Positions 38,353 through 42,511 of a DNA stretch of 64,000 nucleotides are shown piece after piece. How positions within the stretch are numbered: position 1 is the stretch's first letter; each line of letters starts with the position of its first letter. The notes below the pieces were generated by a model. It was not told the origin of the DNA, did not search any database, and worked only from the letters and a program-made list of their open reading frames with translations. The DNA is taken from the NCBI RefSeq assembly GCF_003675875.1, contig NZ_RCDI01000001.1, positions 496,001 through 560,000 of the forward strand. The letters are read 5' to 3'. Both the position numbers and the translations under genes were made by a program. Source of the DNA: Halostella limicola. Lineage in GTDB: Archaea > Halobacteriota > Halobacteria > Halobacteriales > Natronoarchaeaceae.

Positions 38353-38381
38353 GCACTTTGCTAAGCAAAAACACTAAGTGC
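38353..38381. promoter_or_regulatory. Nested palindromes between the winged-helix gene and the RAMP operon
   Basis: TTTGCT-A-AGCAAA (38357-38369) is a perfect palindrome. It overlaps a wider repeat GCACTT (38353-38358) and AAGTGC (38376-38381). The position between divergent genes is right for an operator of the winged-helix protein. No experimental support can be seen. Confidence 0.45.
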
Positions 38382-38404
38382 CTCTCTGTTGTATCTGATA
38401 ATGA

Positions 38405-38470
38405 GAACCCAGTCCTGTAGGGTGCTATAGCGCAAAAGCGCCCGCCTGCTGGAACAGGCGGACTGGGTTC
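38405..38470 (+). ncRNA. Candidate structured RNA element upstream of the RAMP operon
   Basis: An outer stem pairs GAACCCAGTCC (38405-38415) with GGACTGGGTTC (38460-38470), 11 bp perfect. Inside are GCGC-AAAA-GCGC (38430-38441) and CCGCCTG-CTGGAA-CAGGCGG (38442-38461); the latter shares two bases with the outer stem, so the folds may be partly exclusive. It ends 17 bases before the first start codon of the operon. It could be a guide-like or crRNA-like RNA, a 5' leader switch, or a DNA cruciform. The fold is seen; the function is inference. Confidence 0.5.
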
Positions 38471-38487
38471 CGTGCACTGAAGAACCC

Positions 38488-38685
38488 ATGTCTAAAACGG
38501 ATGCAACCGGAGTTGAATCCTCCGGATCGAGAAAGAGCAGCGCTTGGGAAGGACCCATCGCAAAACGAAATCGGTATGGGAAGTATACAGGAGACTTCTT
38601 CCTTCGATGCTCTGACTGTGGAATCGAAGTGTTGGTTGACGACAGAGACCGCGTAAGTCACTTCAAGAGGTGTCGACACGCATGA
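38488..38685 (+). CDS. Small Cys/His protein, first gene of RAMP operon
   Basis: A 65-residue basic protein. The C-terminal half has a single zinc-finger-like set, RCSDCGIEVLVDDRDRVSHFKRCRH (C-x2-C ... H-x3-C-x-H). The N-terminal 30 residues are Ser-rich with KRNRYGKYTG. I recognise no named family. Its stop overlaps the next start by 4 bases, and this pattern holds for all four junctions in the operon, which argues that the small genes are genuine parts of the system. Possibly a nucleic-acid-binding accessory. Confidence 0.7.
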   Translation: MSKTDATGVESSGSRKSSAWEGPIAKRNRYGKYTGDFFLRCSDCGIEVLVDDRDRVSHFKRCRHA

Positions 38686-38873
38686 CTGACGGGTTTACCA
38701 TCGAATACTCTCCTGTCTATGGGAGCCGCCAACGGATTCGGTACGAACCGCGATCGGATGAATCCGGTTACTGGCGTATCGACGAGGTGTGGAACGGGTG
38801 TCGGTGGCGGATCCGCGGTCGGGAACCCGTGCGCGACGTCGTTTATGAAGATGGCGAGGAGGTGTTCCGATGA
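38682..38873 (+). CDS. Small basic protein, second gene of RAMP operon
   Basis: A 63-residue protein, MTDGFTIEYSPVYGSRQRIR, then WRIDEVWNGCRWRIRGREPV. It is rich in Arg and Trp and predicted mostly beta, as in small RNA- or DNA-binding folds. No family is recognised. The start at 38682 overlaps the previous stop (ATGA). A slightly longer reading from 38670 is possible but would overlap further. The stop overlaps the Cas7-like gene start by 4 bases. Confidence 0.65.
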   Translation: MTDGFTIEYSPVYGSRQRIRYEPRSDESGYWRIDEVWNGCRWRIRGREPVRDVVYEDGEEVFR

Positions 38874-39724
38874 CCAACATCCAGGACGTCTACGTTCGAC
38901 TCGAGGCTGACCTGCTGGTGGTCGGCGACTCGATCATGACCGACCGCCATCATGCTTCGAACGGGAACTACGAAGCCGACGACCCGCAGAACCAGATCGG
39001 TGGGATCATTCCGGCTTTTCCGCTCTCCGGGTGGCTTCGGCATGGGATGGAAGCAGTCGTGCAGCAGTACGGCAGCACCGCGTGTCATCCTGGAGAGTCG
39101 AACGCGAACTTCAGGAAGGACAGTGTCTACGACCGTGACCTTGACGACGGGTACCATGAGAAGGGTGCGTGCGTTGAGGATCCAAACGTGGACGACGGCT
39201 GCGTGGTCTTTGACCTATTCGGCGGCTTTGGTGGCGTTCCCGGGAAGGTGATGCGACGGCCGATCAAGTTCAACCCCGTCCGTTCGAGCGTGGACTACAC
39301 GCGCGGCCAGGCCGAAGGTCACTACCGCCAACTCAACCGCAACGTCGTCTCCCGCAACGACGAAGACAAGCGAGAGCCGCTGCGGAACACCGAAGTGGAT
39401 GCCATCGCCAATCTCGACGGCTGCTGGCACCTCTCCTTCCGAGAGTCAAAGCCGGAGTTCCTCGGGTTATTGATTGAAGCAATCGAATTCCTCAATAAAA
39501 GAAGCACCGAGTTCATGCACCAACTCGGTGGTGCGCGAAACTTCGGCGCGGGGATCGTCGACACGCACGTCATCAATCCCCTCTACGACAAGCGGGAACT
39601 GCAGCGAGTCTTCGACCGCGGGCGGGGAACTACGCAGGCGATGGACGAGAAAGACACAGAATGGGCCGAGGAATACCGCCCGGTATTCATCGAAGCACTG
39701 GAAGAGCGCATCGAAAGCCAATGA
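38870..39724 (+). CDS. Cas7-like RAMP protein of an HRAMP-type derived class 1 CRISPR-related system
   Basis: A 284-residue protein with RAMP-fold signs. The motif IPAFPLSGWLRHGMEAV (47-63) is like the I-P-x-S-L-(K/R)G-x-(L/F)R segment of Cas7/Csm3 backbone proteins. GGARNFGAGIVD (220-231) is a Gly-rich loop typical of RAMPs. Residues about 95-165 hold the middle insertion with Cys101, DLFGGFGGVPGKV and RRPIKFNP. In class 1 effectors Cas7 polymerises along guide RNA. Haloarchaeal HRAMP loci, known from the literature, combine diverged Cas7 and Cas5 with an uncharacterised protein and no CRISPR array; this locus fits that description. No Cas10, Cas3, Cas1 or Cas2 is present here. Confidence 0.8.
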   Translation: MTNIQDVYVRLEADLLVVGDSIMTDRHHASNGNYEADDPQNQIGGIIPAFPLSGWLRHGMEAVVQQYGSTACHPGESNANFRKDSVYDRDLDDGYHEKGACVEDPNVDDGCVVFDLFGGFGGVPGKVMRRPIKFNPVRSSVDYTRGQAEGHYRQLNRNVVSRNDEDKREPLRNTEVDAIANLDGCWHLSFRESKPEFLGLLIEAIEFLNKRSTEFMHQLGGARNFGAGIVDTHVINPLYDKRELQRVFDRGRGTTQAMDEKDTEWAEEYRPVFIEALEERIESQ

Positions 39725-40467
39725 CTGACTCAAGAGATCGCGTTCTTATCACTAGCTACAGACACGATGCGCACAAGATGACCGGCCATCCGCACGACGC
39801 TGCACCCGAGACGATCGCGGGCATGCCAGTGAACCAGCCGGTCCCTCAGGGCGCGGACGGCGACGCGGCAGCACTGAGCCGGCCCACTGGCCAGCCCGAG
39901 CAGACGGTGGACACCCACGCGACGCCCTATCGGCTGTCGCTCCTCGAGGGCGAGAGCCGAGACGAGGCGCAGGCGGCCACACGCGATGACGAGACCGCCG
40001 TCCGCGAGCTCCTAACAGAAACCGATCCGGAAGCCATGCACCGGGCGTGGTTGGACAGCGACGTCGCCGCGGCGTTCAACGAGAGCGTCTACTACCCGTA
40101 CACGTCGCTGAAGTACCACACACTACTGGTGGCGGCACTTCTGGCGAACTACCGCGACGGCCACGAGTTCGCCGACCTCCAGTTGGTCGTGGATCCAGCC
40201 GACGAGCTCGTGCCACACCGGACGGTCTACGCGGGTGAGCGCTTCGCACTCAGAATCGACGCGAAAACCGACGGACGGCCAGGCGCACGGCTCGGTCGAC
40301 GGCCGTGGCGGTCGTGGGCGTCGACGTGGTCCCGATTGACCGCGCAGCCGCTCGACACTGACAACGACAAGATCGAGATGGTGCTTGATACGAACCTCCG
40401 TCGGATCGGCGCGTGGTCCACGGCACTGCAGTACATCGAGGATTACGAGAAGAGGTTCGAGCAATGA
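39721..40467 (+). CDS. Uncharacterised conserved-looking protein of HRAMP-type operon
   Basis: A 248-residue protein between the Cas7-like and Cas5-like genes, with 4-bp overlaps on both sides. The first about 90 residues are low-complexity (Pro, Ala, Gln and Asp rich). The rest is a mixed domain: DDETAVRELLTETDPEAMHRAWLDSDVAAAFNESVYYPYTS, LLVAALLANYRDGHEFADLQLVVDP, and IEMVLDTNLRRIGAWSTALQYIEDYEKRF. I do not recognise the fold. HRAMP loci are reported to contain one such uncharacterised conserved protein, and this gene's position fits it. It could be a small-subunit-like or nucleic-acid-binding component. Confidence 0.7.
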   Translation: MTDSRDRVLITSYRHDAHKMTGHPHDAAPETIAGMPVNQPVPQGADGDAAALSRPTGQPEQTVDTHATPYRLSLLEGESRDEAQAATRDDETAVRELLTETDPEAMHRAWLDSDVAAAFNESVYYPYTSLKYHTLLVAALLANYRDGHEFADLQLVVDPADELVPHRTVYAGERFALRIDAKTDGRPGARLGRRPWRSWASTWSRLTAQPLDTDNDKIEMVLDTNLRRIGAWSTALQYIEDYEKRFEQ

Positions 40468-41390
40468 CGAAAATTCAACAAGTCCACTGGGAGCTGACGA
40501 TGGACTACATCGGCCACCCGTACTACGTCTCGGGGAACGCCATCCTGCACGCGCTCGGGCAGCGGCTTCCGAACGACGCCCATCAGCACCTGCACGCGAG
40601 CCACGGTATCTTCGTCCCAGGGCAGTTCGGGTCGTTCCCGGAGGAACACTCGCAGCATGGTGTCCAGCCGTATCTCGGCAGTAGCCTCCCGTCCGTCAAG
40701 GCCTACGACGACCTGTTCCTACTGCGTCACCCGGCACAGCCGTGGCTGCTTGACTCGCGGCCGTGTGACGCACTGAACACCCACGACGTCCGCGTTCAGG
40801 GTGGCCACCCAGCGTTCGCGCACGAAACCATCATGGGCAGGCCCGCTGAGGCATGGAAACAGTACCAAACCACGACGTGGTACATCACCGCCTACCTTCA
40901 TGCCGACCAAGATGACGTCCTTCCGCTCAACGAAAGCAGCCTGGACGGCCTCCAGTTCGGCGGGAAGCGCAATTACGGCTACGGGACCACTCGGCTGAAG
41001 GAGACTCAGATGGTCGACCTCGAGACCCTGGACTACTCACGGCTCGACAACGCCGAAACGTTCCGCCTCGAACTGGTGACACCGTTCGTACTGGCGTCGG
41101 CGTATCCCGACGCTGCCGACCAGGACGTTCCGTGGTGGTGGGGAGAGGACCGCGCCGACCTCCGGGAACGCGAGGAGAAGCTACTCGAGGGGCGTGAAGA
41201 GTACATACTCCAGACGGTGGACCACGGACAGGTGGTACCGTACGAGGGCGACCGCCCGGTGGAGACAGCAAAGAGCGGCATCCGCCGCGTCGGAAGCCAC
41301 TCGAAGTATGGGTTCGGAGAACTACGAGTACTACCGATAGAAAAGGAAACAGATCCATCTCGGACGCTTCACTGTAGTAGGACCCAATAA
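40464..41390 (+). CDS. Cas5-like tandem RAMP protein of HRAMP-type system
   Basis: A 308-residue protein with two Gly-rich RAMP loops. GLQFGGKRNYGYGTTRLKE lies at 162-180, ending the first ferredoxin-like domain, and VGSHSKYGFGELRVLP at 276-291 ends the second. This two-domain plan is seen in Cas5, Csm4/Cmr3 and Cas6; the second loop particularly resembles the Gly-rich loop of Cas6. His residues occur in LHASHGIF and HPAFAHE, but no catalytic site can be claimed. In class 1 complexes Cas5 caps the crRNA 5' handle. It is the last gene of the operon and runs 22 bases into a convergent truncated gene. Confidence 0.78.
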   Translation: MTKIQQVHWELTMDYIGHPYYVSGNAILHALGQRLPNDAHQHLHASHGIFVPGQFGSFPEEHSQHGVQPYLGSSLPSVKAYDDLFLLRHPAQPWLLDSRPCDALNTHDVRVQGGHPAFAHETIMGRPAEAWKQYQTTTWYITAYLHADQDDVLPLNESSLDGLQFGGKRNYGYGTTRLKETQMVDLETLDYSRLDNAETFRLELVTPFVLASAYPDAADQDVPWWWGEDRADLREREEKLLEGREEYILQTVDHGQVVPYEGDRPVETAKSGIRRVGSHSKYGFGELRVLPIEKETDPSRTLHCSRTQ

Positions 41391-41833
41391 ATAAACGAAC
41401 CCTTGTGAATGCCCGGTCGAGATGGAGAATAATAAAGAAATCGAGTTCGCATCAAAAATTTGATTTCGGCAGGCGACACCGCGACTTTCGCATTTCCGTT
41501 GCGCTTGTTGTGGGCAAACGAGAGAATCGCGCCGTACTTCTCAGCCTTCGTGGTCTTCGCGGCTTCAGCGTCCCCGAGCGCGTCGATTTGTGCTTCGACT
41601 GCCCGTAGCCGCTCCTCGCGCTCGGCACAGTGCTGTCGGAACGTCCGCCCTGCATCGGGGAGTTCCTCAAGCGTCTCGATATCGGCATCGACGAGCGCGC
41701 GAAGGGTTCCCGTGAGCAGTGGTATGTCCCGATTCGTCGCCCTCGACACCGTCTCTTCGAGGTCGTGAATAGCGTCCTCGAGGGCAGCAAGGCGTCGTTC
41801 GAGGGCTTCATCGCAGTCGTCTGCGCCACTCAT
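41369..41833 (-). pseudogene. Plasmid-type coiled-coil protein truncated at the RAMP operon boundary
   Basis: A 154-residue reading. Residues 1-95 are a long helix or coiled coil (EALERRLAALEDAIHDLEETVSRA, REERLRAVEAQIDALGD). Then comes KAEKYGAILSFAHNKRNGNAKVAVSPAEIK, which looks like the start of a helix-turn-helix region that normally continues. After PAEIK (about 41456) the remaining 30 codons (FLMRTRFLYYSPSRPGI) are read antisense to the RAMP operon tail and look like foreign sequence. So the gene probably lost its C-terminus when the RAMP operon arrived. It is the last gene of a three-gene minus-strand operon and may still yield the coiled-coil part. Confidence 0.6.
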
Positions 41834-42234
41834 GCCTCTGTCCCATCCGTTGGTGGACTTGCATCGACACGCTCGATGTCAAGCAGGCAGAACTGGTGGG
41901 TTTGCCGCCCGACGTCCGATACCGTCCCGATCAAGGCGCCTACGAGGGTCTCACTCGTGCCAAGGGTCGGCGCCGAGATCCCATCGGGGCCACAGTCCCG
42001 GCAGTAACAGCGCGCCACGTCCCACTCCGTCGCGTCTGCCGCCCGATAGGCATACACGACGACGTTTTCCCCCTCCCGAAGCGTTCGTCCACAGTCGGCA
42101 CACTGGGCTTCAGGGATCGGGACGCCAATCGACACCCCCGTCAGGAGCTGTTCCGGCGTCGTGAGGACCGTCGACAGCTCGGTATCGGTACGCTCCCATG
42201 GCGTGTCCCACGGGTGGATGTACTCGTCGATCAT
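41830..42234 (-). CDS. Haloarchaeal plasmid-associated zinc-finger protein
   Basis: A 134-residue protein with four Cys in two pairs: CADCGRTLREGENVVVYAYR, then CYCRDCG. This resembles a treble-clef or zinc-ribbon. The N-terminus is MIDEYIHPWDTPWERTDTEL. The C-terminal half (VGALIGTVSDVGRQTHQFCLLDIERVDASPP) is beta-rich. I know no function. It overlaps both neighbours by ATGA, forming an operon with the 57-residue protein upstream and the coiled-coil gene downstream; such sets occur in haloarchaeal plasmids and integrated elements. Confidence 0.65.
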   Translation of the reverse strand: MIDEYIHPWDTPWERTDTELSTVLTTPEQLLTGVSIGVPIPEAQCADCGRTLREGENVVVYAYRAADATEWDVARCYCRDCGPDGISAPTLGTSETLVGALIGTVSDVGRQTHQFCLLDIERVDASPPTDGTEA

Positions 42235-42404
42235 GCACGCCGCTCCGTGGTATCATCGTGCCGACTGCGAGGTTCGTACTCCTGCGTTGGGTCGTAGCAC
42301 TCGAAACATGGGAGTGACTCACCCGTCGGGCCGTCACACCAGTCGTTGTCGCAATCGTTCGTTGCTCCGCCAGTCTTTTGTTGTGTTCGTTCTGTAGTTG
42401 CCAT
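42231..42404 (-). CDS. Very small Cys-rich protein, first gene of a plasmid-type operon
   Basis: A 57-residue protein, MATTERTQQKTGGATNDCDN then DWCDGPTGESLPCFECYDP and a charged tail ending TTERRA. Four Cys (C18, C23, C33, C36) could bind a metal. It is short but supported by the 4-bp ATGA overlap with the next gene (42234) and by an operator-like inverted repeat about 110 bases upstream. Function unknown. Confidence 0.6.
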   Translation of the reverse strand: MATTERTQQKTGGATNDCDNDWCDGPTGESLPCFECYDPTQEYEPRSRHDDTTERRA

Positions 42405-42511
42405 TGCTTCTCGAACCTCCGAGGAGCACGGTCGGTGTCATCAGCACCGGCCGGTTTCGATTCAGCAATACCGTGCTCGCTAGTTCCATCTATGCACTAA
42501 TGCCTATTAAT

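Follow-up and report, generated by a model that had tools for sequence, protein, structure and literature searches.

A 66-nt element directly ahead of a HRAMP operon in the window (the whole 64,000-nt stretch of Halostella limicola DNA analysed here) is a member of a large, strongly conserved family of three-way-junction RNAs, in which an outer stem, P1, encloses two further stems, P2 and P3. We think it rather likely that this element forms a structured leader at the 5' end of the HRAMP mRNA, that it belongs to a new haloarchaeal family of cis-acting leaders, and that it works as a bistable translational switch. HRAMP (haloarchaeal RAMP) is presented in the accessible text of its descriptions as an array-less, type III-derived CRISPR system with diverged RAMP proteins (PMC8730458; PMC12669027), and the operon downstream of the element fits this system: it encodes diverged Cas7-like and Cas5-group proteins (Table 1) and has no CRISPR array in its vicinity. 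A sequence-only reading of the same DNA had remarked that HRAMP loci are not accompanied by a CRISPR array; no repeat array was found in the 36–45 kb interval of the window. Relatives of the Cas7-like protein, found by protein search in 99 of 391 genomes of the class, fall mostly into two groups (about 65–83% and 54–61% identity); a profile search of the PDB returned no relatives of this protein.

Table 1. Features of the leader RNA, its surroundings and the HRAMP operon (window positions).
Feature	Position	Strand	Basis or remark
Divergent winged-helix protein, 79 aa	38040–38279	−	Weak, sub-threshold wHTH/TrmB Pfam matches
Perfect palindrome TTTGCTAAGCAAA, candidate operator	38357–38369	.	Sequence
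BRE/TATA position, weak AAAAACACTAAG in window copy	38367–38378	+	Family TATA/A-tract positions and sequence
Three-way-junction leader RNA	38405–38470	+	Fold z −5.0; family covariation; CM match 76 bits
P1	38405–38415/38460–38470	+	Part of leader RNA
P2	38420–38426/38437–38443	+	Part of leader RNA
P3	38444–38448/38455–38459	+	Part of leader RNA
Alternative hairpin P1*	38465–38487	+	GGGTTC (38465–38470, end of P1 3' strand) with pre-AUG GAACCC (38482–38487)
Conserved first codons, M(S/T/K)x(N/S)xxxxQE...	38488–38528	+	Nucleotide pattern about CAAGAANNYNNCG at codons 9–13
First ORF, 65 aa, Zn-finger-like (CSDCGIEV...HFKRCRH)	38488–38685	+	No Pfam match
Second small ORF, 63 aa	38682–38873	+	
HRAMP Cas7-like RAMP protein	38870–39724	+	PADLOC Csm3 E 7.8e-5; TIGR03986 E 1.3e-3, under cut-off
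HRAMP conserved uncharacterised protein	39721–40467	+	Operon position; no family match
HRAMP Cas5-group (Cmr3-like) RAMP protein	40464–41390	+	PADLOC Cmr3 E 7.8e-7
Second leader-family member	42402–42479	−	CM R1 27 bits, R2 36 bits; fold z −3.3; diverged
Convergent operon headed by second member	42231–42404 (57 aa), 41830–42234, 41369–41833	−	

The sequence-only reading described a perfect 11-bp outer stem with two hairpins inside it, the whole ending 17 nt ahead of the first gene. The stem is as described (GAACCCAGTCC paired with GGACTGGGTTC), and so is the 17-nt gap to the ATG at 38488. Both hairpins are also present, but the first is GGGTGCT...AGCGCCC rather than the short GCGC-AAAA-GCGC, as judged from the minimum free energy (MFE) structure and the family consensus, and the conserved core of the second (given as CCGCCTG-loop-CAGGCGG) is only GCCTG...CAGGC because the flanking CC belongs to P2 and the flanking GG to P1. 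The MFE of the element is −38.5 kcal/mol, compared with −21.9 ± 3.3 kcal/mol for its dinucleotide-shuffled versions, none of 200 being as good (z = −5.0), these energies assuming 37°C and standard salt as against the multimolar salt of the haloarchaeal cytoplasm. The minus strand folds equally well because the element is near-palindromic, and thus folding by itself cannot indicate the strand. The exact sequence has a single copy in the genome, where the covariance model match spans 38404–38490 on the plus strand.

Comparison across haloarchaea supports the suggestion of a conserved structured RNA. In both homologue groups, a descriptor search upstream of the Cas7-like relatives found the same architecture, with differing sequence and with its end some 20 nt ahead of the first ORF. 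In a plain MAFFT alignment of 20 relatives, 91.4% of the cells in paired positions were paired and 14 of the 23 pairs carried double changes, while sliding the partners against each other lowered pairing to 22–45%. A covariance model built from the alignment of 20 recovered the element in most HRAMP loci. With 95 members, 93.4% of cells were paired (33–49% when slid), 20 of the 23 pairs showed double, compensatory changes, and none of the shuffles attained any of the pairing measures; alignment A3 was fitted to the model structure, the MAFFT-based count being the more independent. A structure-blind MI-APC scan placed pairs from P1, P2 and P3 at 13 of the top 14 ranks. The compensatory changes exceed what column composition and the slid controls give. 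Across the family, sense-strand pairs included 150 G.T but 41 A.C, an imbalance that fits an RNA of that strand. Searches of 4227 Rfam families at permissive thresholds, one of them with the 1 kb around the window element, gave nothing relevant and no hit above the gathering score.

The element lies between a promoter and the AUG of the first ORF, always in the sense orientation, ahead of many unrelated genes. Family members share a TATA-like stretch at −32 to −28 from the element start (80–93% A/T at −32 to −29) and an A-tract (BRE) at −37 to −35, and the distance from the 3' end of P1 to the AUG has a median of 20 nt; the window copy has a poor promoter consensus. Given archaeal promoter spacing, a TATA stretch some 30 nt before the element suggests that transcription starts at about the first nucleotides of P1, most likely at or a few nt from its 5' strand. 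This arrangement argues for the regulatory leader that had been offered as a second possibility for the element. Upstream, 67 of 97 family members have a divergent wHTH gene related to the winged-helix protein of the window, and its product is probably a transcriptional regulator of many copies. The palindrome TTTGCTAAGCAAA, a candidate operator, sits between the divergent genes in the window, and a similar stretch occurs upstream of the element at locus L053.

Such a leader might be a passive 5' structure that guards the mRNA from 5'-to-3' decay or sets basal translation, with no switching. The element begins close to the predicted transcription start and many copies are most stable when P1 is formed, as this explanation would have it, and a structure serving mRNA stability alone would show much of the same evidence. 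What a passive stem would not need is a further regularity: the nucleotides just before the AUG are complementary to, and covary with, the 3' strand of P1, and we therefore regard a purely passive role as unlikely.

In the window this complementarity would allow an alternative hairpin, P1*, which is mutually exclusive with the outer P1 (Table 1). The pairing recurs with different letters in different subtypes, the end of the P1 3' strand and the pre-AUG segment reading GGGTTC/GAACCC, GGTCTTC/GAAGACC, GGTTTGT/ACAAACC, GGCTGTT/AACAGCC or GCTTC/GAAGC. Taking one member per pre-AUG type, the pre-AUG segment makes a mean of 5.47 Watson–Crick pairs with its own P1 3' strand, against 3.99 ± 0.18 when permuted (0 of 20 000 permutations). 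At wobbles and mismatches within P1, the pre-AUG letter is the complement of the 3' strand in 71 cases and a copy of the 5' strand in 27, even with a register that favours the 5' strand; to describe the pre-AUG segment as a direct repeat of the 5' strand, which we also tested, is thus the poorer choice. Complementarity and tracking together indicate two mutually exclusive folds, state A with P1 and state B with P1*, whose competing helices are both conserved, less clearly in leaders of the GGGCTTC type. In these leaders one A.C mismatch is kept between the pre-AUG segment and the 3' strand, and the non-Watson–Crick pairs of the alternative helix number 29 A.C and 4 G.U; the persistent mismatch means that P1* is unequally supported across subtypes. 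Averaged over the leaders, the segment between the two P1* strands is more stably folded than its shuffles (mean z −1.0).

The two states are often close in predicted energy. The median difference is 2.0 kcal/mol; B is the better state in 21 of 94 leaders, and in 46 of 94 it either beats A or falls short of it by no more than 2 kcal/mol. The MFE structure is state B in the copy of Halobacterium salinarum NRC-1 and at L052 and L056. For the window copy, state A has the lower energy by about 5.7 kcal/mol and is the MFE structure, and the window leader may therefore rest in A. We propose that in state A the three-way junction would leave the approximately 20 nt before the AUG single-stranded and so allow initiation, while in state B the outer half of the P1 3' strand would pair with the pre-AUG nucleotides, forming a hairpin that abuts the AUG and would block initiation. 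In the GAAGC subtype the state B hairpin would take in the start codon itself. Some factor, whether a protein, a small RNA, a ligand or a change at the 5' end, would set the balance between A and B. The conserved pre-AUG sequences are not of the Shine-Dalgarno type, and in the available text of PMC3986360 the Shine-Dalgarno mechanism is reported to be unused at 5' UTRs in Haloferax volcanii.

In nearly all subtypes P1* stops 0–1 nt short of the AUG, which could also point to a processing signal: an endoribonuclease would cut at the base of the hairpin and release a leaderless mRNA, the usual, well-translated haloarchaeal form. That most haloarchaeal mRNAs are leaderless, as stated in PMC3986360, agrees with this idea. 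A candidate nuclease was not identified, however, and in most copies P1 is the stronger of the two helices; we consider processing quite unlikely. A terminator-like role was discounted, since what comes after the hairpin is a start codon and not a U-run.

RAMP proteins are RNA binders, and the sequence-only reading put forward the element, if conserved, as a candidate for the RNA bound by the Cas5/Cas7-like proteins. As an HRAMP partner, it would be bound by these proteins as guide or scaffold, possibly while it also serves as a leader. A second model matched 67 of 88 HRAMP loci at E ≤ 0.05, a diverged element of the GAAGC or AGAACC type was recognised by eye at some eight others, and in all about 75 of the 88 have the leader RNA. 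The RNA is not specific to HRAMP. In a scan of the class, 212 of 391 genomes held a family match at E ≤ 0.001, single genomes having as many as 10 copies; since the many-genome scans scored just 10–12 candidates per genome, the numbers of copies and of genomes are minimum figures. The Cas7-like protein occurs in 99 genomes, 76 of them with the RNA, and 136 genomes have the RNA without the protein; a search with a Cas7 profile raised the protein count to 105 of 391 and reassigned four of the RNA-only genomes, so that approximately 132 remain RNA-positive without an HRAMP Cas7. The RNA is enriched in HRAMP genomes (76/99 against 136/292, odds ratio 3.8), but this follows from the HRAMP operons themselves bearing the RNA. 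Among 48 sampled non-HRAMP copies searched up to 5 kb downstream, 44 showed no trace of HRAMP; the other four have HRAMP remnants and may be decayed HRAMP loci. These genomes and traceless copies mean that the RNA is not dedicated to HRAMP; HRAMP specificity, our first working idea, was dropped after the class scan. Combined with the absence of a repeat array in the neighbourhood, this makes a role as HRAMP partner very unlikely. At L134, L138, L140 and L165, fragments of HRAMP genes lie downstream of the leaders and no intact HRAMP Cas7 was found; these are probably degraded HRAMP loci.

At the level of the phylum, 32 of 345 sampled genomes were positive, all from the genus, family or order of the window genome; this sample was tallied by positives, with negatives outside the order not itemised. 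Family copies occur in Haloferax sulfurifontis, in Haloarcula japonica and on plasmids of Halobacterium salinarum, one of these being the leader on pHSAL1 of strain DSM 3754 (NZ_CP038632.1, 116516–116609, minus strand). No match was found for an exact 20-mer of the element in viral contigs, for one element type in phage records, or for a second element type in plasmids.

The genes behind the leaders are of many kinds. First ORFs include SWIM zinc-finger proteins (5 of 38 scanned), small zinc ribbons, a Tat-signal sequence, the opening genes of HRAMP operons and proteins of no known family; they share only their first ~13 codons and are otherwise unrelated. The sharing extends to the nucleotide level, codon 11 ending in T or C in 94% of cases (background 58%), codon 12 ending in C in 85% (38%) and codon 13 starting with G in 95% (48%). 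A 42-nt block coding for MSMKTSAGLQDSGT follows two leader subtypes and precedes unrelated proteins, with identity dropping sharply on either side. Since an MI scan found no pairs between these codons and the leader, codons 9–13 stay a linear motif; a pairing of J1/2 (TCGG) with codons 12–13 was inspected by eye and dropped for want of covariation. The proposed switch does not account for these conserved nucleotides within the coding region. Nor do the downstream genes, with SWIM proteins, zinc ribbons, HRAMP and others among them, form the single pathway that a metabolite riboswitch would be expected to serve. At L187 (4002–4043), the conserved first-codon block (about CAAGAANNYNNCG) is fused to an unrelated protein. 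A family of ~100-aa proteins (LGxDxxGxxHxY ... W..V..RGW), recognised by eye and with no common Pfam family, recurs after leaders at L014, L016, L036, L142, L146, L148, L154, L155, L157 and L164.

Several loci carry leader and gene as tandem units (four at L131, three at L132, four at L156), several of which encode SWIM zinc-finger proteins. Such repetition, together with the joining of one 42-nt start block to different proteins, might suggest that the element acts as folded single-stranded DNA, an attC- or REP-like site for cassette recombination or a transposition end. The excess of G.T over A.C on the sense strand, the fixed orientation and place between TATA and AUG, and the lack of any consistently linked recombinase make this highly improbable. 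Returning to the leader as a translational switch, we see about equal grounds for and against a broader reading: that the family is a new natural class of archaeal RNA switch, confined to haloarchaea in the sampled phylum, in which the mRNA 5' end and the pre-AUG segment compete for one strand, and that wHTH gene, promoter, leader and the first 13 codons form a module, a portable expression cassette which has been joined to many unrelated genes, HRAMP among them.

Structured leaders as such are a known kind, and what appears new is the family, the alternative helix at the AUG and the link to shared first codons. Like bacterial riboswitches, ribosomal-protein leaders and other switching leaders, these are 5' leaders with two competing helices, one of them by the start codon. 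Unlike these, the present family has no known ligand, has no Shine-Dalgarno sequence to mask, continues into conserved codons past the AUG, precedes unrelated genes and was found only in haloarchaea among the samples searched. A synthetic translational riboswitch in haloarchaea indicates, in the accessible text of its report, that leader structure can control translation in these organisms (PMC8241225), but that system is engineered. CRISPR RNAs and tracr-like RNAs are likewise structured RNAs beside RAMP genes; the leader described here differs in lacking repeats, in heading an ORF and in its presence at many loci, and in many genomes, that have no cas-like genes. The accessible text of the published HRAMP descriptions names no RNA (PMC8730458; PMC12669027); the leader found here also precedes many non-HRAMP genes. 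We found no description of the leader family in the open-access literature, and it is apparently undescribed.

To our knowledge, few natural structured leaders are known in haloarchaea. With mRNAs that are mostly leaderless, a multi-copy, covarying leader family found in more than half of the sampled haloarchaeal genomes therefore gives a way into RNA-based regulation among archaea. It explains the common starting peptide of many unrelated small haloarchaeal ORFs, and it offers a concrete, testable reading of how HRAMP might be controlled. Because Halobacterium salinarum carries copies on plasmids and others are present in Haloferax sulfurifontis and Haloarcula japonica, work on the family in laboratory strains is practical. 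The two leader copies of the genome studied here, the window element on the plus strand and the diverged second member on the minus strand, face each other across the HRAMP operon, the latter heading a convergent operon of its own (Table 1).
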